Assembly (NCBI GenBank): GCA_015229115.1
Contig: JADGCH010000002.1
Span: 1 to 64,000, forward strand
Length of the DNA: 64,000 bases
Origin: Magnetococcales bacterium
Lineage (GTDB): Bacteria; Pseudomonadota; Magnetococcia; Magnetococcales; JADGCH01
Direction of reading: 5' to 3'
Shown here in pieces: positions 1,318-52,248 of this stretch (position 1 is the first letter of the stretch; each line of letters begins with the position of its first letter). The position numbers and the translations under genes were made by a program. The notes beneath the pieces are model-generated. The model was not told the DNA's origin and did not search any database. It saw only the letters and a program-made list of their open reading frames with translations.

Positions 1318-2142
1318 TCACTCCATACCATCCAACACAATGCCCTCCTGCTGGGCCCAGGCCTGCAGCAAGGCTAACGCCGCATCGAAATCATAGACAG
1401 CCAGTTGTTGTTGCAGCTCGGCCACTTTTTGCTGGCGCGGTGTCTGATGTACCAAGTCTGCAATGGAGGCGCACAACGACTCGGCGGTCGAATCGCAGTG
1501 GAGCAGTGCGGTGGCGGTCTGCTGGAATAACGTTGCCAACTGGCTACTGTCGATCTCAGGTTGAACTGTCACGGGCGTATTCGCTGCTATGTCTGGAGTA
1601 TCTCGGGCGGCTAGCGCCTGTTCAATGCTGCCACACACCCGACGCAATTCGCTGGCAAGCTGTTCCAGTAGATCGGTGCATCCTGCCGCTACGGCATCGT
1701 CGCGGTGAAGGGCCTGTTCCAGCTGTTTGGCCAACCGTTGCAGCTGTTCGGCACCCAGGGTGGCAGCCAGTCCCTTCAAGGTGTGGCTCAGTCGTTCGGC
1801 AGTGTCCCACTCCTGCTGCTCCAGAGCGGTACGAATGGCTGCTGCAGCCTGTGATTGACGCTGATTGAATTTAGCCAACAGCTCCCAATACAACGACCTT
1901 CGATGATCAACATGCTGCAACCCAAGGTGGCTGTTGATGCCCGCCATCTCTGGCAGCTCGGCCGCTTCATCCTGAGTGGAAGGCAACTGTTGATGGTCTG
2001 CAAGATCCGACCGTACCGTCGGCCTGATCCATTGGACCAGCGTGGCAAACATCTCCTCAACCCTGATAGGCTTGGCAATATGAGCCTGCATGCCAACGGC
2101 CAAACAGGCCTCACGGTCCTGATCCATGGCATTGGCTGTCAT
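1318..2142 (-). pseudogene. Truncated receiver C-terminal half plus HPt domain; probable 3' remnant of the upstream hybrid kinase
   Basis: Starts mid-receiver (IIAMTANAMDQDREACLAVGMQAHIAKPIR) followed by an HPt with intact SHTLKGLAATLG motif; no N-terminal half of the receiver in frame. Confidence 0.65.
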
Positions 2143-2196
2143 GGCGATAATCGGCAGCTCAGCCCAGCGCGCATGTTGGCGAATGTGGCAACCATA

Positions 2197-4587
2197 TCAG
2201 GCATCATGACCTCCGGTTGTTTGATCAATGATCTCCAGCAACCTGCTCTTGCGGATTGGTTTGGAGAGGTAGTTCTGCATACCTGCAGCCAGGCACTCCT
2301 GGCGGTCCTGGGCCATGGCATAGGCCGTCAAGGCAATGATCGGCAAGCGCGGCAACCCCTGTTGCTGTTCCCACTGACGCCACAGGCGCGTGGCGGTATA
2401 GCCATCCATGATGGGCATCTGGATATCCATCAGCACCAGATCGTAGCGTTCCTGTTTGAGCTTGGCCAACGCCATGGCACCATGATCGGCCACGGAAATC
2501 TGGTAAGGCCTACTACTGAGAAAGGCTTGCACCAGCAAACAATTGTCGTTGGAGTCATCCGCCAGCAGAATGCGCAGTGGCCTGCAACGGGCTGGCGTTG
2601 TCGTGGCTGACTGCTGGTCAGTCAATTCCCTATCAGGGATTGTCAAACCCAGCACTGTGGCAACAGTCAGCAACAATGGGGCGCGGCGAATCGGTTTGAC
2701 CAGGAAATGATGGATACCCAAGGCATCACAACGTTGTTGATCCTGGCTGCTGTGGTGGGAAGGCAGCATCATGACCGGCACGGCCGGATCACCGGCAGCA
2801 CGCCAGCATTCTGCCACCTGAAAACCATCCATGCCGGGCATCTGCACATCCAGCAACAGCAGGTGAAACAGGTTGACCCCTGCCCGTGCCCGCTCCAGCG
2901 CCAACAGGGCGGATGGACCATCCTCGGCTTCATCAACCAGGGCTCCGGCCTTGGTCAAAATATCGAACAGCACCAAACGGTTGATAGCATTGTCATCGAC
3001 CACCAGAATGTGTACGCCCTGCAGATTGGGCAACGTCACGGGAGCGATCTGGTCCGGACCTTTTGTCAGGGACAGCGTCAACTGGAAGGAAGAGCCCTTG
3101 CCAACGCTACTTTGCAGCTGGATATGACCGTGCATGCGTTCAACCAGACGTTTGACAATGGCCAAACCCAGGCCGGTACCGCCAAAACGGCGCGTGATGG
3201 AACTGTCGACCTGAACAAAATTATCGAAGATGGCTTCTTGTCGCTCCACCGGGATGCCTATGCCAGTATCGGTCACGGTGATCAGCAGCTCCACGTCCGA
3301 TGACTCGGCTGCAGCAGGATCAGCCCGTGCCACGCGCACTTCGATACCGCCCTGGTCGGTAAACTTGATGGCGTTATTGAGCAGGTTGAGCAGAATCTGG
3401 CGCAGCCGGACCGGGTCTCCCAGCAATATTTCCGGGATATCCGGCGCAATGTGCCAAGTCAGCTCCAGACCCTTGCTGCTGAGACGCTGAGTCACGATCT
3501 CACAGGTGCTCTCGATCTCTTCGACCAGGTTGAAAGCAACCTCTTCCAGTGACAGTTGACCGGCCTCAATCTTGGAAAAATCGAGAATGTCGTTGATGAT
3601 CCCCAGCAGGGTCTCACCAGCGGAACGAAACACCTGCACATATTTACGCTGTATGCCGGTCAGCGTGGTTTCCCATAGCAGATCGGCCATACCAAGAATG
3701 GCGTTCATCGGTGTACGGATCTCGTGGCTCATGGTGGCGACAAAATGGCTTTTGGCCTGACTGGCCTGCTCGGCCTGGCTTTTGGCCTCACGCAGCGACT
3801 GTTCCAGCCGTTTACGCTCGCTGATATCGCGTGCCGACGCATAGAGGTAGGGTTGTCCATCAAGCTGGATGCCCTTGGCATTGATCTCGGCATCGAACAC
3901 CGTACCATCCCTGCGGCGGTGTTTGGTTTCAAAAATGGCCGGCTGGCGCATCAGATCCTGGATGACCTGAACACACTGCTCTGGTGCGATGGTGGCATCC
4001 CAGTCAGTCACGTTGAGCATGATCACCTCATCCTTGCCATAACCCAGCGCCCTGGCAAAAGAATCGCTGCACTGGAACACGTTGCCCTGCTGGTCGAGTA
4101 TGTGGATGCCATCGCTGGCATTTTCCAGCAGAATCTGGTAGCGGTTGCGCTCCAGCTGCAGCAGTTCCAGGGTCTGCTGCTGACCCATCCGCAATTGGTA
4201 TAATTCAGTAAATATCCTGATTTTGGCCAGCAGGATGGTGGGGTCAAAGGGTTTTTCCAGATAATCAATACCACCCGAGGCGTAAGCCTGTAGCTGATGG
4301 TGCTGGTCTTTGAAAGCCGCAGTCAGAAAGATGATCGGGATCTGACTGGTCTGCTTAAACTCCTTGAGCATTTCTGCCACCTGATAACCACTCATGCCCG
4401 GCATGTTGACATCAAGGATGATCAAAGCCAAATCGTGTTCGACGACCAAGCCAAGCGCCTCTTCACCACTGCTGGCGGTGATGAGCTCGGCCTGCAGCGG
4501 TTGCAGCAGACGCCGCATCGCCAGCAGATTGGCCGATTGGTCATCAACAACCAGAATCTTCGGCCATGTCGTCCCGTGCGCGTTCAT
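2197..4587 (-). CDS. Hybrid histidine kinase (REC-PAS-HisKA-HATPase-REC-REC)
   Basis: Translation shows N-terminal REC (ILVVDDQSANLLAMRRLL...LIILDVNMPGMSGYQVAEML), PAS, H-box [23 protein letters not shown], HATPase [16 protein letters not shown], two further REC domains. Confidence 0.9.
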   Translation of the reverse strand: MNAHGTTWPKILVVDDQSANLLAMRRLLQPLQAELITASSGEEALGLVVEHDLALIILDVNMPGMSGYQVAEMLKEFKQTSQIPIIFLTAAFKDQHHQLQAYASGGIDYLEKPFDPTILLAKIRIFTELYQLRMGQQQTLELLQLERNRYQILLENASDGIHILDQQGNVFQCSDSFARALGYGKDEVIMLNVTDWDATIAPEQCVQVIQDLMRQPAIFETKHRRRDGTVFDAEINAKGIQLDGQPYLYASARDISERKRLEQSLREAKSQAEQASQAKSHFVATMSHEIRTPMNAILGMADLLWETTLTGIQRKYVQVFRSAGETLLGIINDILDFSKIEAGQLSLEEVAFNLVEEIESTCEIVTQRLSSKGLELTWHIAPDIPEILLGDPVRLRQILLNLLNNAIKFTDQGGIEVRVARADPAAAESSDVELLITVTDTGIGIPVERQEAIFDNFVQVDSSITRRFGGTGLGLAIVKRLVERMHGHIQLQSSVGKGSSFQLTLSLTKGPDQIAPVTLPNLQGVHILVVDDNAINRLVLFDILTKAGALVDEAEDGPSALLALERARAGVNLFHLLLLDVQMPGMDGFQVAECWRAAGDPAVPVMMLPSHHSSQDQQRCDALGIHHFLVKPIRRAPLLLTVATVLGLTIPDRELTDQQSATTTPARCRPLRILLADDSNDNCLLVQAFLSSRPYQISVADHGAMALAKLKQERYDLVLMDIQMPIMDGYTATRLWRQWEQQQGLPRLPIIALTAYAMAQDRQECLAAGMQNYLSKPIRKSRLLEIIDQTTGGHDA

Positions 4588-5189
4588 GAACGGTCCAGTT
4601 GCTGTTCAACGATACTTCTCAGCTGCCCGAACGAAATAGGCTTATGTAAAATCGGGATGTTGGCATCCAGTCCTCCCCGTTCAGCGATTTTCTCAGCCGT
4701 CAGAGAAGTGATGACAACAATAGAGCAGTGATGCAACCTGGAATTACGCCGAATACTACGGATCATCTGGAAACCATCCATCAAGGGGGTCATCAGGTCG
4801 GCCAGCAACATATCTGGTTTGTGGTAACCGGCCAGAATCAAACCATCAAAACCATTGTCGGCGGTCAGGATATCGATGGGCAGCTGCCAATTTTTGAAGA
4901 CCTCCACATAACTGCTCAACAGTACCTCGTCATCTTCGACAATCAGCAGACTCATCTTGCCAGTCGGCTTGTGAGTCGACTGGCCTGCTAATGCCGCCTC
5001 TCTCTTGCTAAGAATGGCATTGATGGAGGTACGTGCAATATGATAGTGCCCCCCTTCGGTCTGCCATGCCTTGAACAAACCGCGCATCATCCAGTTGTGA
5101 ATGGTGCGTTTGGAAACACCGAGCAATCGTCCGGCCTGTGCCGGCGTCACATAGTCACTGGTTTCTGCTGAAAGGGTATTCTGATCCAT
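4584..5189 (-). CDS. HTH (excisionase/BldC/MerR-like) DNA-binding domain fused to a C-terminal receiver domain
   Basis: N-term DYVTPAQAGRLLGVSKRTIHNWMMRGLFKAWQTEGGHYHIARTSI (helix-turn-helix_17 style) then MSLLIVEDDEVLLSSYVE...DMLLADLMTPLMDGFQM...ILHKPI. Overlaps the downstream kinase by 4 nt. Confidence 0.85.
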   Translation of the reverse strand: MDQNTLSAETSDYVTPAQAGRLLGVSKRTIHNWMMRGLFKAWQTEGGHYHIARTSINAILSKREAALAGQSTHKPTGKMSLLIVEDDEVLLSSYVEVFKNWQLPIDILTADNGFDGLILAGYHKPDMLLADLMTPLMDGFQMIRSIRRNSRLHHCSIVVITSLTAEKIAERGGLDANIPILHKPISFGQLRSIVEQQLDRS

Positions 5190-5233
5190 CTCCTACCATC
5201 CTCTGAACGATTCTGCTTTTGGCTTTCCATTCT

Positions 5234-5269
5234 ATAAAGAACGTAAACATCGTAAATATCGTAAATCTA
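5234..5269. repeat. 9-bp tandem direct repeats (iteron-like), about 4 units: ataaagaac / gtaaacatc / gtaaatatc / gtaaatcta
   Basis: Read directly from sequence upstream of the HTH-REC gene (minus strand start 5189). Confidence 0.8.
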
Positions 5270-5302
5270 TCCTCAATGAAAGGCAAGGAAAGCGCCCCAA
5301 CG

Positions 5303-6814
5303 TCAGCAGGTCAACTCAACCATGGTCATATCATCGCTCTGTTCATGACCAGCCCGGTAACCTCTCAGGGTCCTCTGGATCATTTCGAGTGGCTCATCCA
5401 GATCCAGGATCTGTTGCAATAACCTCTCAAAGTTGTCTTGCCCAAACATCTCCCCATCGGCGTTGCTCTCTTCTGTCAGACCATCGGTATAAGCAAAAAA
5501 ACGGTCTCCAGGCTCGACCTGAATCATGACACCGGGACCACAGGGGCGGTTAACCAGGCCCCTGGCCATATGTCCGGACACCACTCTCTGATCAAGCCTG
5601 TTATGGCGAAACAGCAACATATCGGGGATGGCACAATTCCATACCAGCAGTTGCGTCCGCGATGGATCCAGCTCAAGAAAACCAGCAGCCAGAAACACAT
5701 TGGTGGGGGTTTTCTCATAAAGTCTCACGTTGACTTCGGTGATGATTTTGGCCATCGGCCAGCCCTTGCTGGTCATGGAGTAGAAAATATCCGAAACAAT
5801 GGGACCACCAATGGCAGCTGGTAAGCCATGACCGGTAAAATCGCCCAACAGGACATGCTGAGCACCATCCGGACTGAAAGCGGACAGCAGCACATCTCCG
5901 GCAGTCTTCTCGACCGGATCCTGCAAAAAACGCAGATGACGGCCATTAAACAGCTTCGATGAGCGCATGCGCGTAATAATTTCCTCGATAATCTGTCGTT
6001 CAAAGGCCAGCTTGTCGCGATGCCGGCGCAGCTCGTCCTCCATTTTTTTATGCTGGGTAATATCCTCGGTAAACATCAGAATACCGCCAACGGCTCCGGT
6101 TGGCTTGTGCCACGGTAACCCTTCCCAACGAAACCACCGCACCTCATGATCTGTCACCTGAATAGGGTCAGCATCGCTTTTCTCATGAGAGCCCTTCAGG
6201 CAGCGCTGGTGAATGGCCTGCCATTTTTCTGGCTGATCCGGCAATAACTCGTAATGCGACCGCCCTATGATGTTCCTGTTGACCAGATGATAATCCTCCT
6301 CCCAGCGTTCACTGACATGCAGATAGCGCATGTCCTGATCAAACATGGCTATCGCCACGGGACTATGCCGTGTGAAGAGATGGATGACCTCTTCATCCTG
6401 TTGCTGTTTGATAAGGGTACGTATCCGGTGCTCCAGCACAGCCCAGTTAATCGGTTTGGTAATGTATTCGTTGGCACCAGCCTCATAGGCCCGATCAACC
6501 GATTGCTGGTCATCCAGCGAGGTGACCATGATGATGGGCAACCGACTCTGCTGCAGACCACGGCGCAGTTGCAAACAGACATCAAAACCATCCATACTTG
6601 GCATGCTGGCATCAAGCAGCATCAGATCGGGCTTGTTACTGTCACAAAGACGCAAGGCCTGTTCGCCGCTATCAGCCGTCAGAACGTTGAAACCACGGCG
6701 CATCAGGAGCTGACAGGCAACGTCGACCATGACTTCATCGTCATCACAAACCAGAATGGTCAGTGGGTCACCCGCTGTCGTGTTGCCAGCTACCGTATCA
6801 ATGGGGTCAGTCAT
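5303..6814 (-). CDS. REC-PAS-PP2C (SpoIIE/RsbU-type) serine phosphatase
   Basis: REC (ILVCDDDEVMVDVACQLL...LMLLDASMPSMDGFDV), PAS (HSPVAIAMFDQDMRYLHVSERW), PP2C motifs VLLGDFTGHGLPAAIGG and FFAYTDGLTEESNADGEMFG. Confidence 0.9.
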   Translation of the reverse strand: MTDPIDTVAGNTTAGDPLTILVCDDDEVMVDVACQLLMRRGFNVLTADSGEQALRLCDSNKPDLMLLDASMPSMDGFDVCLQLRRGLQQSRLPIIMVTSLDDQQSVDRAYEAGANEYITKPINWAVLEHRIRTLIKQQQDEEVIHLFTRHSPVAIAMFDQDMRYLHVSERWEEDYHLVNRNIIGRSHYELLPDQPEKWQAIHQRCLKGSHEKSDADPIQVTDHEVRWFRWEGLPWHKPTGAVGGILMFTEDITQHKKMEDELRRHRDKLAFERQIIEEIITRMRSSKLFNGRHLRFLQDPVEKTAGDVLLSAFSPDGAQHVLLGDFTGHGLPAAIGGPIVSDIFYSMTSKGWPMAKIITEVNVRLYEKTPTNVFLAAGFLELDPSRTQLLVWNCAIPDMLLFRHNRLDQRVVSGHMARGLVNRPCGPGVMIQVEPGDRFFAYTDGLTEESNADGEMFGQDNFERLLQQILDLDEPLEMIQRTLRGYRAGHEQSDDMTMVELTC

Positions 6815-7187
6815 GGCGACAGATCTCCTGTATAGCAGTCACTATCCTGTTTTTTGTAAGTGGTTTGTTGAGAATGCAATCAGCTCCCAGATGGCGCAGT
6901 GTTTTCAGTGCGAATTGCGAATCAAGAAAATCCGATCCTCCCGTTATGACTATGATTTTGGGTCTTGTCGCTTGTCTAGTAATCGTCTTGACCACCTCAA
7001 TACCATCGGCTCTGGGCATGTAGATGTCGGTAACCACCAGGTCAAAGGTTTTTTCCTTCAATTTTTTCAAGCCCACCCAACCATCTTTGGCTCTCGAGAC
7101 CTTGAAGCCCAGATCGATGAAAATATGGTGCAGCAGCACTCGGACAATTTCATCGTCATCAATGATCAGAACGTGACGTGCAGTCAT
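6807..7187 (-). CDS. Single-domain response regulator (CheY-like receiver)
   Basis: HVLIIDDDEIVRVLLHHIF...DLVVTDIYMPRADGIEVVKTI...KPLTKNRI. Confidence 0.9.
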   Translation of the reverse strand: MTARHVLIIDDDEIVRVLLHHIFIDLGFKVSRAKDGWVGLKKLKEKTFDLVVTDIYMPRADGIEVVKTITRQATRPKIIVITGGSDFLDSQFALKTLRHLGADCILNKPLTKNRIVTAIQEICRHD

Positions 7188-7192
7188 TGATC

Positions 7193-9997
7193 CTATCTCC
7201 TCTCTGCACAGGTATCGAACAGCAGCGCGAGCAGTTGCTGCTGTACCCGTTCTCCTTCAGCCATCAGTTGAGCCATGATTTCAGCACCACGGGGTGACAG
7301 CCCTTCCTGGTGCAGACAAAGTTCCAGTCTGGCACAGAGATCCGAGAACGTCGTGGCGCCAAAAGTAGCCGACGAACCCTTCAGCTTGTGCGTTATCATA
7401 GCCACCTGCCCGGCGTCGTTGTCGCTCCACGCCTGCGCCAATGCCGCTAAACGCTGTGGAAAGCTATCGGAAAATCTACTCAGCACCGATTGGAAACCTG
7501 TGCCTACATCGGCCTTTAATTCAGCCAGTTTGACACGATTGATGGCCTCCTCCGAGCTGGCCACCATCTCGACGTCAAGTTGAGCGCACGCTGCCGGCAA
7601 CTGGCATGAGCACAGGTCTGCGTAGCTCATGATAACGTGCAGCAAATCGGCGCGACGCACTGGTTTCGTCAGATGCATGTCACACCCGGCTGCCATGGTT
7701 TGCTGGATATCCTCTTTCATGGAGTTGGCGGTCATGGCTACCACCGGAGTACGCCGCAAGCCGCGACTGGCTTCGATGGCCCGCCACTGGCGTGTTGTTG
7801 CCAGGCCGTCCATCACCGGCATCATGATATCCATTAAAACCAGATCGAACGACCTCGTTACCAGGAGCTGCAGCGCCTCTGTGCCGTTGCAGGCCTCCAC
7901 GATCTGGTGCGATGTTGTGTCAAGAAAGGCCTGCACCACCAGACGATTGTCTTCCATATCATCGACCAGCAGGATATGCAGACCCTGATCGTTCCGACTG
8001 CTATCCGGCTGCACTGCAACAGGCTGATCGTCCGGTAACGTCACGACCGCCTGGTCAATGGTTGAGGCATCAACTGGCGGCATGTGCACGGTGAAGTGAA
8101 AGACACTGCCTGTAGCCTTCTGACTCTCCACCCAGATTTTACCACCCATTTTTCTGACCAGTTGACGGCAAATGCTCAATCCCAGTCCAGTGCCGCCAAA
8201 ACGCCGGGTGGTGGAATTTTCGGCCTGGATAAAGGGCTGAAAAATGGTGTAGCACAACTCTTTTTCAATACCGATGCCGCTATCAGTTACCGAGCAGTAG
8301 AGCTTCTCATCGGCCCAGGCTGCAACGCGCACCACAATACTACCCTGTTCCGTGAATTTGATGGCGTTGTTGAGCAGGTTCAACAATACCTGCCGCCAGC
8401 GATGCACATCGCCACGCACCTGGAGCGGCAGGTCGGTAGCCAGCGAACAGGTCAGCTGCAGTCCTTTCTGGGTCGCAGCCTCGGTAACGAAGGCCACCGT
8501 CTGCCGTGTCTCAAGCGCTGGGTCAAAGACCCCATCCTCCAGATGTAACTGTCCGGCTTCGATCTTGGACAGATCGAGGATGTCGTTGATGAGCGTCAGC
8601 AGGGTCATACCGGCTTTGTTGGAAACATCAAGCAGATTTTTTTCCTTGTCGGACAGACGGGTCGATGCCGCCAGCACCTCGCCGACGCCAAGAATGGTAT
8701 TCAGAGGCGTTCGGATCTCGTGGCTCATGGTGGCCAGAAACCGGCTTTTAGCCTGATTGGCGTCCTCAGCCTCTTTTCTGGCTTTCTTGAGCGATTGTTC
8801 AAACAGCTTGCGTTCGGTGATATCGATGACGACACCATCCCAAACGCTATCGCCATTATCCTGCAGGATCGGAAACGACTGGATATGCAACCAGCGCAAC
8901 TGTTCCCCGACCCAAAAACGACCCTCCCACAGAAAAGGCATCTGGTTGGCCCGGACATACTGGTTCAGTTGCATGAACTGATCTTTTTCCTTGGCATAAA
9001 CCCTTGTGAAGGCCCGCCCGGCATCCTGCATGATGGCGTCATGATCAAGGCCTAACAATTCACAGAAGGGTTGGCTGACATAGTCAAATGAACGATTACC
9101 ATCCTGCTGCCAACGCAGCTTGTAAATACCCACCGGAACCCGTTCGGTCAGATCCCGATACTTCTTTTCGTTACGACGCAGCTCCGCTTCCATGCGCTTG
9201 CGCTCGGTGATGTCCTGGTGGGTGCCTACCATACGCAGTGGCTTGCCATCGTTGGTATACTGGACCACCTTGCCGCGATCCAGCACCCAGATCCAGTCAC
9301 CGCCTCTGGTCCGGAGACGGTGCTCTGTTTCGTACATGGGAGTCACCCCATACAGGTGCGCATCAAGAACCTCCAGGACAAGACCAACATCATCTGGATG
9401 GACCAGTTTCTGCCACGATCGCACATGGGGTTCGATGTCGCCGGGCTGATAACCGAGCATGGTCTGCCATTTTGGGCTGAAATAGACCGATCCAGTCTGG
9501 ATGTCCCAATCCCAGACGCCATCGTTGGCCCCCTCCAGAATAAAATGAAGGTGCTCATTGCTACTGACCAGCTGCTGGTACAGCTGTTTGGCCTCGCCTT
9601 TGGTTCTGTGAAGTTCGAGAAACAGATTGACCTTGGTCCGCAACACCTCATCGTGAATCGGCCTTTCGATATAGTCGATGGCTCCCGACTGATAACCTTT
9701 CAGACGATGCCATTCATCCCGGTAGGCAGCGGTCACAAACACGATGGGGATGTATTGGGTTTGCTCCAGTCCCCGTGCCATATCGGCCACTTCGTAACCA
9801 TCCATGTCGGGCATATCGACGTCAAGCAGCATCAACGCCAGCTCGTGATCCAGCAACAGAGCAAGCGCCTCATTGCCTGATTGTGCCGTAATGACATTGG
9901 CGTCAATATCCTGCAAAATGGCTAATAATGCCTTGATATTGGCCTGTTGGTCATCGACTATGAGTATATTGGGACGCGTTGACGCATTCATGGGCAT
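7193..9997 (-). CDS. Hybrid histidine kinase (REC-PAS-PAS-HisKA-HATPase-REC-HPt)
   Basis: Probable start MPMNASTRPNILIVDDQQ at ~9997 rather than 10099. H-box [23 protein letters not shown], HATPase GTGLGLSICRQLVRKM, REC DLVLMDIMMPVMDGL, HPt THKLKGSSATFG. Confidence 0.9.
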   Translation of the reverse strand: MPMNASTRPNILIVDDQQANIKALLAILQDIDANVITAQSGNEALALLLDHELALMLLDVDMPDMDGYEVADMARGLEQTQYIPIVFVTAAYRDEWHRLKGYQSGAIDYIERPIHDEVLRTKVNLFLELHRTKGEAKQLYQQLVSSNEHLHFILEGANDGVWDWDIQTGSVYFSPKWQTMLGYQPGDIEPHVRSWQKLVHPDDVGLVLEVLDAHLYGVTPMYETEHRLRTRGGDWIWVLDRGKVVQYTNDGKPLRMVGTHQDITERKRMEAELRRNEKKYRDLTERVPVGIYKLRWQQDGNRSFDYVSQPFCELLGLDHDAIMQDAGRAFTRVYAKEKDQFMQLNQYVRANQMPFLWEGRFWVGEQLRWLHIQSFPILQDNGDSVWDGVVIDITERKLFEQSLKKARKEAEDANQAKSRFLATMSHEIRTPLNTILGVGEVLAASTRLSDKEKNLLDVSNKAGMTLLTLINDILDLSKIEAGQLHLEDGVFDPALETRQTVAFVTEAATQKGLQLTCSLATDLPLQVRGDVHRWRQVLLNLLNNAIKFTEQGSIVVRVAAWADEKLYCSVTDSGIGIEKELCYTIFQPFIQAENSTTRRFGGTGLGLSICRQLVRKMGGKIWVESQKATGSVFHFTVHMPPVDASTIDQAVVTLPDDQPVAVQPDSSRNDQGLHILLVDDMEDNRLVVQAFLDTTSHQIVEACNGTEALQLLVTRSFDLVLMDIMMPVMDGLATTRQWRAIEASRGLRRTPVVAMTANSMKEDIQQTMAAGCDMHLTKPVRRADLLHVIMSYADLCSCQLPAACAQLDVEMVASSEEAINRVKLAELKADVGTGFQSVLSRFSDSFPQRLAALAQAWSDNDAGQVAMITHKLKGSSATFGATTFSDLCARLELCLHQEGLSPRGAEIMAQLMAEGERVQQQLLALLFDTCAERR

Positions 9998-10022
9998 GAA
10001 TCCTGATCTTGTGAAAAAAGAT

Positions 10023-10051
10023 TTGACAGTCGCACCCCTCATCCGTATAAT
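10023..10051 (+). promoter_or_regulatory. Consensus sigma70-like promoter TTGACA-N17-TATAAT
   Basis: TTGACA at 10023-10028, 17-nt spacer, TATAAT at 10046-10051; upstream of the kinase starting at ~10125. Confidence 0.75.
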
Positions 10052-10053
10052 AC

Positions 10054-10089
10054 GTGAAAATCGTAAAGAATGTGCACATCGTAAACCTA
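10054..10089. repeat. 9-bp tandem direct repeats: gtgaaaatc / gtaaagaat / gtgcacatc / gtaaaccta
   Basis: Period-9 units immediately 3' of the TATAAT box; same unit type as 5234-5269. Confidence 0.75.
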
Positions 10090-10124
10090 TCACAGACAAA
10101 AGACAAGCAGAGATTGTAAAAAAA

Positions 10125-13100
10125 ATGATTCAATGGGAATCCCTGTTCAATCATGCTCCGCAAGGCATGGCCATCGTCTCGCTACAGGGCCGGTTTCTCA
10201 AGGTTAATCAGGCTCTGTGCGATATGGTTGGCTATCAACCGGAGGAGTTGCTGGCGACTGATTTTCAATCGATTACCCATCCGGATCACTTGGTCAATGA
10301 TCTGCGCGATAGGCAACGGATGCTGGCTGGTGGCTGCGGCTCTTTTCAGAAAGAGAAGCGTTACATCCACAAGCAGGGCCATGCGGTCTGGGCACGGCTG
10401 CGTGCCGTTCTGGTCCGTGATGAACAGCAGCAGCCGCTTCATGTCATGGCCTACATTCAGGATATGACCGCCCAGTTAGACCATTTCTTTACAGCTGCGG
10501 TCGACCTGTTCTGCATTGCCGGCACCGATGGCTATTTTCACCGCCTCAACGCCATCTGGCAGGAGGTATTGGGTTATTCGACCGTTGAGTTGATGGCCAC
10601 CCCCTGGATCGATTTTGTCCACCCGGACGATGTCCCCAAAACCAGACAGGCCCTGACCGATCTGAAACAGCAGAAGGTGTTGCACAGCTTCATCAATCGT
10701 TATCGCTGCAAGGATGGCCACTATCGCTGGCTGGAGTGGACCTCGACACCGGTCGACGATGTCATTTATGCCACGGCACGCGATATCACCGAAAAGGTCT
10801 ACAACGATGAGATCGTGCGCAGTAACCGGCAACAGTTGCATGAGATCACCAGCACACTGATCGAAGGACTGTTTGTCGTTGATCGCAGTCGACTGATTTC
10901 CTTCATCAATCCCATGGCCCTGGAGCTGCTGGATTATACAGCCAGTGAGGTATTGGGGCGGCCATGCTCGGTACTACTCCGCTGCGCAACAGATGGTGGC
11001 CTGGTCTGTTGTGGCCACGATTGCCCGATACTGGCCATTTTCAGTCATGGTCAGACCATCGTGACCGATGACCACTTTTTTCAGAATCGCCAGGGCAACC
11101 CGTTTCCGGTTGCCATCATGGCTGCACCGATCATGCGGGCAGACGCTGTCGATGCCGTTGTGGTGACGTTCAGCGACATTACCCAGCAAAAGGTGGCGCA
11201 ACAGGCGCTGATAAAAGCCAATCTGGCCCTGCAGCGCAGCAACGACTTTCTGGAACAGCTGTTCAACACGACTCACCTCTCCATTGTCTTTCTGGATCGC
11301 AACTTCCGTTTTATCCGTGTCAATCGCTCCTATGCCCTGGCCTGCGGCCATGACCCTGATTTTTTTATCGGTCAAAATCATTTTGACCTCTATCCCAACG
11401 CTGACAATGAGGTCATTTTCCGGCAGGTGGTGACCAGCGGTGAAACCTATACCGCCGTGGCCAAGCCGTTCGAGTTTCCCGACCATCCAGAATGGGGCGT
11501 CACTTACTGGGACTGGAGTCTGTATCCGATTCATAACACCCAGGGACAGGTGGAGTGGCTGATTTTTACTCTGCTGGACGTCACCCGTAGCAAACGTAAC
11601 GAACTATCCATGACACAGGCCAAAGAAGAAGCCGACCGTGCCAACCAGGCCAAAAGTGAGTTTCTGGCGATGATGAGCCATGAGATCCGTACGCCCATGA
11701 ACGGTATCCTCGGCATGGCCGATCTGCTGGCCGATGACCCGCTATCCGATCAGGCACGATCGCGGGTAGCCGTGATCCAGGGATCCTGCCAGACCTTATT
11801 GACCGTCATCAACGATATTCTCGATTTTTCCAAGATTGAATCGAGCAAGCTGATTCTGGAGGTAGCGCCTTTTCAGTTGCAGCCGTTGTTGCAGCAACTG
11901 GCTCAACTGTTTCAGATAGCGGCTCAGCACAAAGGCATTGCCTTCACCATCGACATCAACGGCGTCATCCCGACGATCGTCCATGGTGATGCCACGCGGG
12001 TACGTCAGATCCTGACCAATCTGCTGGCCAATGCCATCAAATTTACCGATCAGGGCTATGTCCGTTGCCAGGTTGCTGTCGTGCAACAGCAGCAGCACAA
12101 CTGCCGGGTCGCTTTTGTGGTACAGGATAGCGGTATTGGTATTGATCCCAACCATCTTCAACAGATTTTCCAGCCGTTTTCTCAGGCCGAATCCTCGATT
12201 ACGCGGCGTTTTGGCGGTACCGGATTGGGGCTGGCCATTGCCCATAATCTGGTGACCCTGATGCAGGGAACCATTGAAGTGGTCAGCACGATCGGCCAGG
12301 GCACACGGTTTGAAGTGGTGCTACCTTTTGCAACAGGGACAGCGACCGACAGCATCGCGACGCTGACATCAGCAGCTCATGGGGCAGCGTGGCAACAAGA
12401 ATCCCTCGGTCATCACCGTGTGCTGGTCGTGGAAGATGATCCTGTCAACAGTGCTGTCATACAGGGCATGCTGGCACGCTATGGCCTGCAACCCGATTTG
12501 GCTGAAAATGGCCTTCTGGCACTGCAATCGTGCCGTCGTCAACGCTATGATCTGGTGTTGCTGGATTGCCAAATGCCGGAAATGGACGGCTTTGAGGTCT
12601 GCCGCATCCTGCGGGCTGAGGAACGTGACAGCCGTCATACACCGGTTGTAGCCTTGACAGCACACGCCACCATCCCTATCCAGCAACGCTGTGTATCGGT
12701 TGGCATGGATGGCTTTCTGACCAAGCCGATTGATCGTGGCAAGCTGCACGAAGTTCTGACACGCTGGCTGGTACAGCCGCCACCGGCAGCCGCAGTCCCC
12801 AGCACCGCCTCACCGGCCATGGCAACCCTGGCATCGGTGCCAATCCTGGATGAAGAACAGTTACTGACCTTTCACCAGAATGTTGGCAGTGGATTTGATT
12901 CGGTCATTGGCATGTATCTGAATTTACTTCCTAAAAGAGTTCGATCCATCCTTGACAGTATCGCCCAGAACAAACCACAGGCGCTGTTTCGTGCTGCTCA
13001 TACCCTCAAGGGGTCCAGTCGCCAGGTAGGCTGTGCGCGCCTGGCTACACTGTGCGAACAGCTGGAACGGCTGAGTGAGTCTGACCTGACGGATGGTGCT

Positions 13101-13172
13101 GATGGTCTGTCTCATCAGCTGAACGTCGAGGCCGATCGGGCCTCCGGGGCGCTACAGAACAGGATACACTAG
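10125..13172 (+). CDS. Hybrid histidine kinase (multiple PAS, HisKA, HATPase, REC, HPt)
   Basis: Likely start [24 protein letters not shown] at 10125; the ORF-track start at 9873 overlaps the divergent gene. H-box [43 protein letters not shown], HPt [13 protein letters not shown]. Confidence 0.9.
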
Positions 13173-34913: not shown

Positions 34914-35894
34914 TTAATGCGCTGCCTGAGGCTCATCACCGAAGATCTCCTGCAGCGAATGGGCGTCGACAAATCGGTCGGTCCATTGTTCCAAAAGATC
35001 CAGACTGGCATTGAGCACCCTAGGCTCTACCCAGGATGGTAGCGTGGCAAAACGACGCCGAAGCAGGCGTAGCAAGACTGACTGTTCACCCTTTTCTATG
35101 CCTTTTTCTATGCCTTTTTCTATGCCTTTTTCTATGCCGATTTGCTCAAAACTAGTCACATAAGATGGCATTTTATTTCCTCCTTCAAGTTCTGCCAGCT
35201 CGCACGAGAGCTGATGATTGGCAACCTTCGATAACCGCAACACCCAGTCGACGAAGCGCAGCAGTTGCCGGATCTTCTGATGGGTGAATCCCTTCTGGTA
35301 CAAGCCACGGATGATCTCCTTCTTGACCTGATAGCGCCGCTCGGCATCGCCTCGGGTTTGCTTGGCGTACAGGTGAGCCAGCAGGACGACGGCAAAAGGA
35401 TTGTCCGACGATCTCAGCTCCTCTTCACGGTTCATAAAGTCGAGCAACTTGACGGCGTTGAACTGGTAGATCACCTGACTGCCCAGCAACCCGGAACGAT
35501 ATTCCTGCGGACGCCAGCCCTCATCCATGTCGGCCAGTAAGGCAATACCGACTACCTTCCTGCGGAATAGGTCGTAGATACGGTAGTGGCACTGGAACAT
35601 GCGCTCTTCAAATCCGGTGACCCGATCCCCTTGCGCCTCGACATGCAGCAGGATCCAGTGCTCACAGCCATCCTTGAGCCACACCTTGATCAGCTTATCC
35701 ACCCGCCGGTTGGTGGTAGCGGCATCGACCAGAATGCGCGCCAGCTCCTGATCGAGGAATTCCGGAGCACGCGACCAGTCGATCAGAGCATGAAGATCGG
35801 GCAGCAACATCGCCAGTAAATCGTCGAGCAGCTCTTCGATCACTTCCTTCCAAGGGCTATCGTACTCATCCTGTGGTGGCGGAGATTCATGCAC
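34914..35894 (-). CDS. Rpn/PDDEXK-family putative transposase-nuclease protein
   Basis: SPWKEVIEELLDDLLAMLLPDLHALIDWSRAPEFLDQEL...RRVDKLIKVWLKDGCEHWILLHVEAQGD...FQCHYRIYDLF...; C-terminal GIEK repeat typical of this family. Confidence 0.8.
   Translation of the reverse strand: MHESPPPQDEYDSPWKEVIEELLDDLLAMLLPDLHALIDWSRAPEFLDQELARILVDAATTNRRVDKLIKVWLKDGCEHWILLHVEAQGDRVTGFEERMFQCHYRIYDLFRRKVVGIALLADMDEGWRPQEYRSGLLGSQVIYQFNAVKLLDFMNREEELRSSDNPFAVVLLAHLYAKQTRGDAERRYQVKKEIIRGLYQKGFTHQKIRQLLRFVDWVLRLSKVANHQLSCELAELEGGNKMPSYVTSFEQIGIEKGIEKGIEKGIEKGEQSVLLRLLRRRFATLPSWVEPRVLNASLDLLEQWTDRFVDAHSLQEIFGDEPQAAH
35089..35136. repeat. 12-bp in-frame tandem repeat (cctttttctatg x4) encoding GIEK repeats
   Basis: Four units, first slightly degenerate, within the Rpn-like CDS. 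Confidence 0.9.
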
Positions 35895-52100: not shown

Positions 52101-52187
52101 CAATGCCTGGATCAGTTTGATTTTGCCGGAGCGCGCGATGTTTTAGCGGCTTTGGTGGCGAAACTAACCCTTGGAAAGCAACAGTGA
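49179..52187 (+). CDS. Membrane hybrid histidine kinase (periplasmic sensor-HisKA-HATPase-REC-REC-HPt)
   Basis: H-box [24 protein letters not shown]; HATPase GTGLGLSISKQLVELM; REC DVVLMDIQMPVMDGYTA; HPt VHTIKGMAGNLAA. Confidence 0.92.
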   Translation: MSDIPYLSSLEYRFTVYVGLGMTLFSLLVGLGTYRYFSSQEVIHALALEQQLVQTVVSQAAVGAFVKNDPIAQDVMQGLLVNPIILGVRIESKEGFLAQQTKVAPLDFSAAVLHPLPSPVRADEIVGTLKVVVDLVSVQRSATLKALLYAGMLVAQIIVATVLLMVLVRHMLGRPVALLAQQMTHIHPGAGRRLTIDSSRPYDEIGLLSSSANALLDTADHAIDMEHRLRLQLSEALQAAEEANQSKSSFLANMSHEIRTPMNAIIGLTDLALQTNLTAQTRDYLTKVSSSSQSLLRLINDILDFSKIEANKLDLEQVPFFLRDTFDHLADLFRAKMTEKHLELILCASEECRYQLYGDPLRLEQILMNLVSNALKFTDEGEIEVQITTLQETVDQVTLHFSVRDTGLGMSQEQVARLFQPFSQADSSTTRRFGGTGLGLSISKQLVELMAGRLWVTSAPGQGSTFYFTANFQRVLQTAEIDDMTLPEAMEALRVLLVEDNQAARAAIENMLQLFGLTVTSVASGPEALAVIQQGLASGSPYPLALVDWFMPGMSGLDSLRQMNAMIPHPSRPKVILLVPFGREQPMRTLGDPMGVDGYITKPVNCSVLFDTIMDVFGHNVQKIYRSGKTVLDPTDIIQHIGGARVLLVEDNAINRQVAQEVLESVQLVVESAENGFIATQMLEKAPYDVVLMDIQMPVMDGYTATRHIRNQPRFADLPIVAMTANAMAGDREQCLAAGMNDHVGKPIIQKELFATLVRWIGSSDRSSPRPYQPVAQQPRGGESQEEVPDVLPGLDIAVALDRLNGNRPLLRSLLIEFQRTHSHTMAELDVYLTGKRKSDRDTARHIVHTIKGMAGNLAAHDLADAARALETILRDDQAHAAAWSEALQHFELALTQVLTSIDHMPHATSTPPLQQQDHETTLSAETMDQVKQTILALSELVRYNDVNAIHQLNRLKELVLNVTSLAGEIDQLDQCLDQFDFAGARDVLAALVAKLTLGKQQ

Positions 52188-52236
52188 GGAGCAAGATTGA
52201 GGAGCAAGATTGAGGAGCAAGATTGAGGAGCAAGAT
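52185..52236. repeat. 13-bp tandem repeat (tgaggagcaagat x4) at the kinase stop/next gene start
   Basis: Exact four copies at 52185, 52198, 52211, 52224, then partial tgagggg. Confidence 0.95.
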
Positions 52237-52248
52237 TGAGGGGTAACT

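Follow-up and report, generated by a model that had tools for sequence, protein, structure and literature searches.

Why does a short run of 9-bp direct repeats lie directly in front of a response regulator gene, and which protein might bind it? We address this question in a 64-kb stretch of a Magnetococcales genome (64,000 nucleotides, hereafter the window), in which an earlier note had described iterons upstream of a gene for a helix-turn-helix protein with a receiver domain (HTH-REC) and had predicted autoregulation by its product. Our reading, to which we assign a probability of roughly 0.78, is that this tract and a second array nearby are operators of HTH-REC, which would bind them head to tail, most likely as a repressor under phosphorelay control.

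The iteron tract upstream of the HTH-REC gene

The letters quoted for the tract at 5234-5269 proved exact, and its 9-bp period was confirmed by a self-match of 20 of 24 columns and by Tandem Repeats Finder (5242-5266, period 9, 93% matches). A period-9 self-match of this strength was absent from all 100 simulated versions of the window (order-3 Markov model, 64 kb), and one of the 100 had a match as strong at some period from 6 to 15. On the minus (coding) strand the repeat reads TTTACGATR, and its TTTACG core occurs three times without mismatch at intervals of 9 bp. This is the top-scoring three-unit place within the window, and a four-unit scan peaks at 5230. The tract had been described as four units, of which the supposed first, ataaagaac, is weak and straddles the decayed end. 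The minus-strand promoter proposed at the same time, TTTACG-N16-TAGAAT, does lie at 5256..5229. Since it spans these positions, its -35 hexamer is the core of the second unit.

Array 1, 5239..5265, minus strand: three 9-bp units, CGTAAAYAT on the plus strand (sequence, tandem repeat, simulation)
Array 1 unit 1, 5265-5257, minus strand: TTTACGATA (sequence)
Array 1 unit 2, 5256-5248, minus strand: TTTACGATG (sequence)
Array 1 unit 3, 5247-5239, minus strand: TTTACGTTC (sequence)
Decayed fourth unit, 5230..5238, minus strand: TTTATAGAA, overlapping the -10 hexamer (sequence, four-unit scan)
Predicted sigma-70 promoter of the HTH-REC gene, 5229..5256, minus strand: -35 TTTACG at 5256-5251, N16, -10 TAGAAT at 5234-5229 (by consensus match only, 9/12)

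Tandem repeats of other periods are also present in the window: a perfect 12-bp repeat, TTTTCTATGCCT, in 3.9 copies at 35092-35138, and a 13-bp repeat, AGCAAGATTGAGG, in five copies with 96% matches at 52177-52241.

HTH-REC and its gene cluster

The surrounding region, from 1318 to 13172, is a dense two-component cluster with three hybrid kinases, a CheY-like receiver, a REC-PAS-SpoIIE phosphatase and HTH-REC itself.

HTH-REC response regulator, 4584..5189, minus strand: 201 aa (Pfam, PDB sequence matches, AF2, Foldseek)
Hybrid histidine kinase (REC-PAS-HisKA-HATPase-REC-REC), 2197..4587, minus strand: downstream of HTH-REC
REC-PAS-SpoIIE phosphatase (RsbU-type), 5303..6814, minus strand: the gene immediately preceding the HTH-REC promoter region
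Single-domain receiver (CheY-like), 6807..7187, minus strand (Pfam)
Hybrid histidine kinase (REC-PAS-HisKA-HATPase-REC-Hpt), 7193..9991, minus strand: start codon inferred
Histidine kinase (multiple PAS-HisKA-HATPase-REC-Hpt), 10125..13172, plus strand: start codon inferred, downstream of a perfect promoter

The 7193..9991 kinase gene is the first, and the SpoIIE phosphatase gene the last, of the minus-strand operon preceding HTH-REC. The hybrid kinase gene 2197..4587 shares 4 bp with the stop end of the HTH-REC gene, and the two are likely on one transcript. The partners of HTH-REC vary, because in several genomes (loci L024, L036 and L052; in L024 by Pfam) the gene that follows it encodes a twin-arginine-type solute-binding protein rather than a kinase.

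Pfam places an N-terminal HTH_17 domain of the BldC/MerR-like kind at residues 13-63 and a C-terminal receiver at 82-194 (Response_reg, E 3.4e-14). The receiver keeps its acidic pair, and D86, D131 and K183 are invariant in 17 divergent HTH-REC members; with the acidic pair, D131 and K183 retained, phosphorylation of HTH-REC is plausible.

Likeness to BldC

The premise that BldC binds head-to-tail direct repeats agrees with published work, in which one protomer occupies each 9-bp repeat, W31, T42 and G44 lie in the interface between protomers, and R30 reads a C-G pair (PMC5859096). Footprints cover about 30 bp at whiI and about 50 bp at smeA, and transcription of whiI begins earlier when bldC is mutated, so that BldC acts on it as a repressor (PMC5859096).

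The top PDB sequence match of the HTH domain is Streptomyces BldC (6AMA/6AMK, E 0.0027). Similarly, an AF2 model of the domain built from a two-sequence alignment (mean pLDDT 89.8) finds the BldC-DNA complexes 6AMA/6AMK as its top Foldseek matches, at an rmsd of 0.9-1.3 A and a TM score of 0.74-0.80. The domain is a MerR-like winged HTH without the coiled-coil dimerisation helix, followed instead by a linker and the receiver. The residues W33, T44 and G46, which correspond to BldC W31, T42 and G44, are invariant in the 17 divergent members, although conservation of the T-GGH motif alone is no proof of head-to-tail packing, because it is common to many HTH_17 domains. Among the other interface positions, the window protein keeps V25 (V23 in BldC) and a hydrophobic residue, L23, in place of BldC F21, and the BldC pair E16/R22 is replaced by Q18 and G24.

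The likeness concerns the winged HTH fold, the positions that align with the BldC interface and DNA contacts, and the presence of 9-bp direct repeats with an AT tract after a C (GACAATTCG in BldC). Several differences are clear. At the position of BldC Arg30 the window protein has N32, and the base is T, not C; arginine is kept in two relatives (L052 and L029), and we take the change as one of specificity rather than of fold. The letters of the window unit, CGTAAAYAT, differ from those of the BldC repeat. BldC stands alone, with 68 residues and no receiver, whereas the 201-residue window protein carries its HTH fused N-terminally to one, and its candidate operator is its own promoter, unlike the BldC case. 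Taken strictly, HTH-REC is not a BldC protein, because its size and the residue at the Arg30 position differ; judged from sequence and model, it would work like BldC.

A second array between divergent kinase genes

The earlier note had proposed a genome-wide search for further repeats. In the 3.1-Mb genome, no second place with two perfect cores appeared, and an imperfect array was found 4.8 kb away. A scan of the window with the array 1 unit likewise returned a single other place, 10041-10085, which the note had not mentioned. This array lies in the intergenic region of the divergent kinase genes of the HTH-REC cluster, and its score was not attained anywhere in 126 Mb of simulated sequence.

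Array 2, 10041..10085, minus strand: five in-register 9-bp slots, TTTACGATG TGCACATTC TTTACGATT TTCACGTAT TATACGGAT (unit scan)
Perfect sigma-70 consensus promoter TTGACA-N17-TATAAT, 10023..10051, plus strand: 12/12 match, with its -10 within array 2
Predicted promoter TGCACA-N18-TATTAT, 10047..10076, minus strand: 9/12 match, entirely within array 2

A genome-wide regulon was rejected, given that a scan of this genome (G000) found no multi-unit site other than arrays 1 and 2 and that most of six further matches inspected in relatives are at background level. In 18 other HTH-REC neighbourhoods of 3-20 kb, each scanned with its own unit, the top place was in every case the HTH-REC array, usually also the sole convincing one, so array 2 may be peculiar to this genome. 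The six matches in relatives were mostly single-unit and intragenic. The exception, a two-unit intergenic TTTGCAA site at L166 (G010:C277:16265-16280), is a possible second target in genome G010; it precedes a small gene whose product probably carries a signal peptide.

Conservation of the 9-bp period

We searched 48 genomes of Magnetococcales and found the gene in 39, with 51 full HTH-REC copies. For each copy, the best self-match of 18 positions was taken from the 250 bp upstream, with a threshold of at least 13. At period 9 the mean was 12.55 of 18 and 26 of the 51 genes reached the threshold; at the remaining periods between 5 and 20, apart from 18 (twice 9), means ranged from 9.2 to 9.65 and between 0 and 2 genes did so. 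Arrays at threshold occur in 11 of the 14 families of the order. Among controls at period 9, the threshold was reached by 2 of 80 upstream regions of other ORFs from the same loci and by 2 of 50 downstream regions, and 30 of the 51 HTH-REC upstream regions scored above their dinucleotide-shuffled versions (p<0.05). When 399 genomes from the phylum were searched with a profile, 31 from outside Magnetococcales gave matches; among the 33 HTH-REC genes taken from these, 12 reached at least 13 at period 9, compared with 0-2 at other periods bar 18.

Conservation upstream of orthologues, which the earlier note had made a test of its proposal, therefore holds for the period (26/51 in the order, 12/33 elsewhere) and not for the unit letters; conservation of the same letters was rejected. 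The clearest array in the order, at L022, has seven successive TTTGCAARA-type units. Roughly half of the HTH-REC genes fall below the threshold, some with two visible units and some with none. Arrays are present in 32 of 67 cases with a long upstream gap and in 5 of 17 with a short one, a weak trend towards array-less genes being second in operons. In G001, a genome of the same genus that is 69% complete, neither HTH-REC nor an array was found, and the most promising array match falls within the first part of a GyrA-like gene.

The geometry of promoter and array across the family is suggestive. Since the array lies near the best predicted promoter in only 14 of 26 cases (permutation p 0.085), a repression geometry is not established family-wide. 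L029 has a TTTGTC/TTAGTC array at about -154 and, ~300 bp ahead of its HTH-REC gene, another tandem of 9-bp period with CATGAAAAA as the repeated sequence. L011 and L012 carry arrays in both orientations ~140-220 bp upstream, whose units may be readable from either strand because TTGCAA is palindromic.

Unit letters follow the recognition helix

If each protein recognises its own array, unit letters should change with the recognition helix, as a shared unrelated regulator would not predict. We compared the 38 strongest arrays with the nine recognition-helix residues of their proteins. Unit similarity correlates with helix identity (rho 0.36, 0/1000 permutations). In partial Mantel tests the correlation is 0.275 given receiver identity and 0.274 when the rest of the HTH is also included (each 0/1000), against only 0.10 for unit and receiver identity given the helix.

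With the units phased blind to the proteins, RT[IV]H(Y/N)W helices accompany TGCAAA, TGTAAA or CGTAAA units, a [TC]G[CT]A pattern; TIK helices accompany GAC or GAT units; and VQL/IQL helices, in four families, accompany GATAAAT-like units. For instance, L052 combines a BldC-like helix, VDERTITRW (VDPKTVTRW in BldC), with the unit GACAAA, near BldC's own repeat. Two paralogues within one genome, L031 and L051 in G022, also differ: one has CGCATTTCT with SQRTVHNW, and the other GACAAAATC with APTTIKGW. Histidine at residue 31 goes with G at base 2 (15/17 vs 1/21; Fisher 1.3e-7, collapsed 7e-4), and Leu/Asn at residue 32 with T at base 3 (4.8e-4, weakening to 0.06 when like cases are collapsed). 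Because the sequences are related, these p-values are optimistic, but the association recurs across families and within genomes. The base numbering on which this residue-base test depends is a choice, because random-seeded phasing reached a likelihood nearly equal to that of BldC-seeded phasing, but with mixed registers.

Proposed mechanism and alternative readings

We propose that the iterons serve as the operator of HTH-REC, the response regulator encoded next to them, whose BldC-like winged HTH would dock head to tail with a single protomer on each 9-bp unit. Co-variation of the unit with the helix, together with the likeness to BldC in sequence and modelled fold, supports the predicted binding of HTH-REC to its own iterons in the BldC manner. 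At array 1 the multimer would lie over the -35 and spacer of the promoter for HTH-REC and its hybrid kinase, and at array 2 over the core elements of the two kinase promoters that diverge there. Its likeliest effect would be repression, both of its own gene (negative autoregulation) and of the kinase genes; we infer this sign from the position of the arrays over promoters in this window. The receiver would presumably tune oligomerisation once phosphorylated by the surrounding phosphorelay kinases, and phosphorylation may either relieve or strengthen repression.

The live rival is that the self-bound multimer activates, its upstream units recruiting RNA polymerase in a positive feedback switch as in many OmpR-type regulators. 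Autoactivation is frequent among response regulators, array 1 has two of its three units over the -35 or upstream of it, and the spacing of promoter to array differs among genomes. However, both arrays lie on top of core promoter sequences, among them the -10 of a promoter that matches the consensus perfectly and should need no activator, and BldC represses whiI, which is transcribed earlier in the bldC mutant (PMC5859096). We consider activation unlikely, at about one chance in five.

Less probable still, and by a long way, is that the arrays bind a different shared regulator, such as a nucleoid protein, another HTH protein or a replication-type initiator, the adjacency of HTH-REC being incidental. 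Direct repeats of 9 bp are also found as replication iterons and DnaA-type sites; however, the units of the G022 paralogues each follow their own recognition helix, the partial Mantel test favours the helix, and the G014 genome has a single place of the array's kind. That the tract has no function, being a tandem duplication that arose in AT-rich spacer DNA by chance or mutation, seems scarcely credible: short tandem repeats of other periods do occur elsewhere in the window, but the enrichment is limited to periods 9 and 18 when compared with other ORFs, downstream regions and shuffles, and the gene cluster contains another array in register. Simulation and the family-wide period test led us to reject a chance repeat.

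Comparison with other regulators

Response regulators of the OmpR/PhoB type also bind direct repeats and often autoregulate. Their winged helix is C-terminal, after the receiver, and their repeat spacing is usually 10-11 bp, whereas in HTH-REC the MerR-like HTH is N-terminal and the repeat period is 9 bp. A classical MerR protein has a palindromic operator, a 19-20-bp spacer and a C-terminal coiled coil; HTH-REC differs in its direct repeats, its 16-bp spacer and a receiver in place of the coiled coil. Its receiver matches that of a Colwellia protein named a merR-family DNA-binding response regulator (PDB 3CNB), whose structure comprises the receiver only and for whose operator we found no description. 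Excisionases (Pukovnik Xis, 4J2N; RdfS, 8DGL) are also among the Foldseek matches, with a MerR-like winged HTH fold, and RdfS is described as an oligomeric winged HTH protein (PMC11963761). They are recombination directionality factors without a receiver, and no recombination genes were noted beside the arrays. Our literature search, with most subscription papers outside its coverage, returned no published BldC-like HTH-receiver fusion with iterons at its own promoter.

Implications

Binding to 9-bp repeats head to tail was already known from one actinobacterial protein, BldC. What is added here is a large proteobacterial family that combines a BldC-like domain with a phosphorylatable receiver and candidate operators of its own, and the related arrays suggest a family of phosphorelay switches sitting on their own promoters. 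In a wider reading, to which we give even odds, BldC-type HTH-REC proteins would form widespread head-to-tail filaments under phosphorelay control that repress themselves through private iterons, with a helix-to-base code, in which residue 31 would read base 2 and residue 32 base 3, insulating paralogues in one cell from one another. The family offers a natural data set for such a recognition code and a route to predicting the targets of orphan response regulators from sequence, and it makes testable the question of whether phosphorylation switches a head-to-tail DNA filament on or off.
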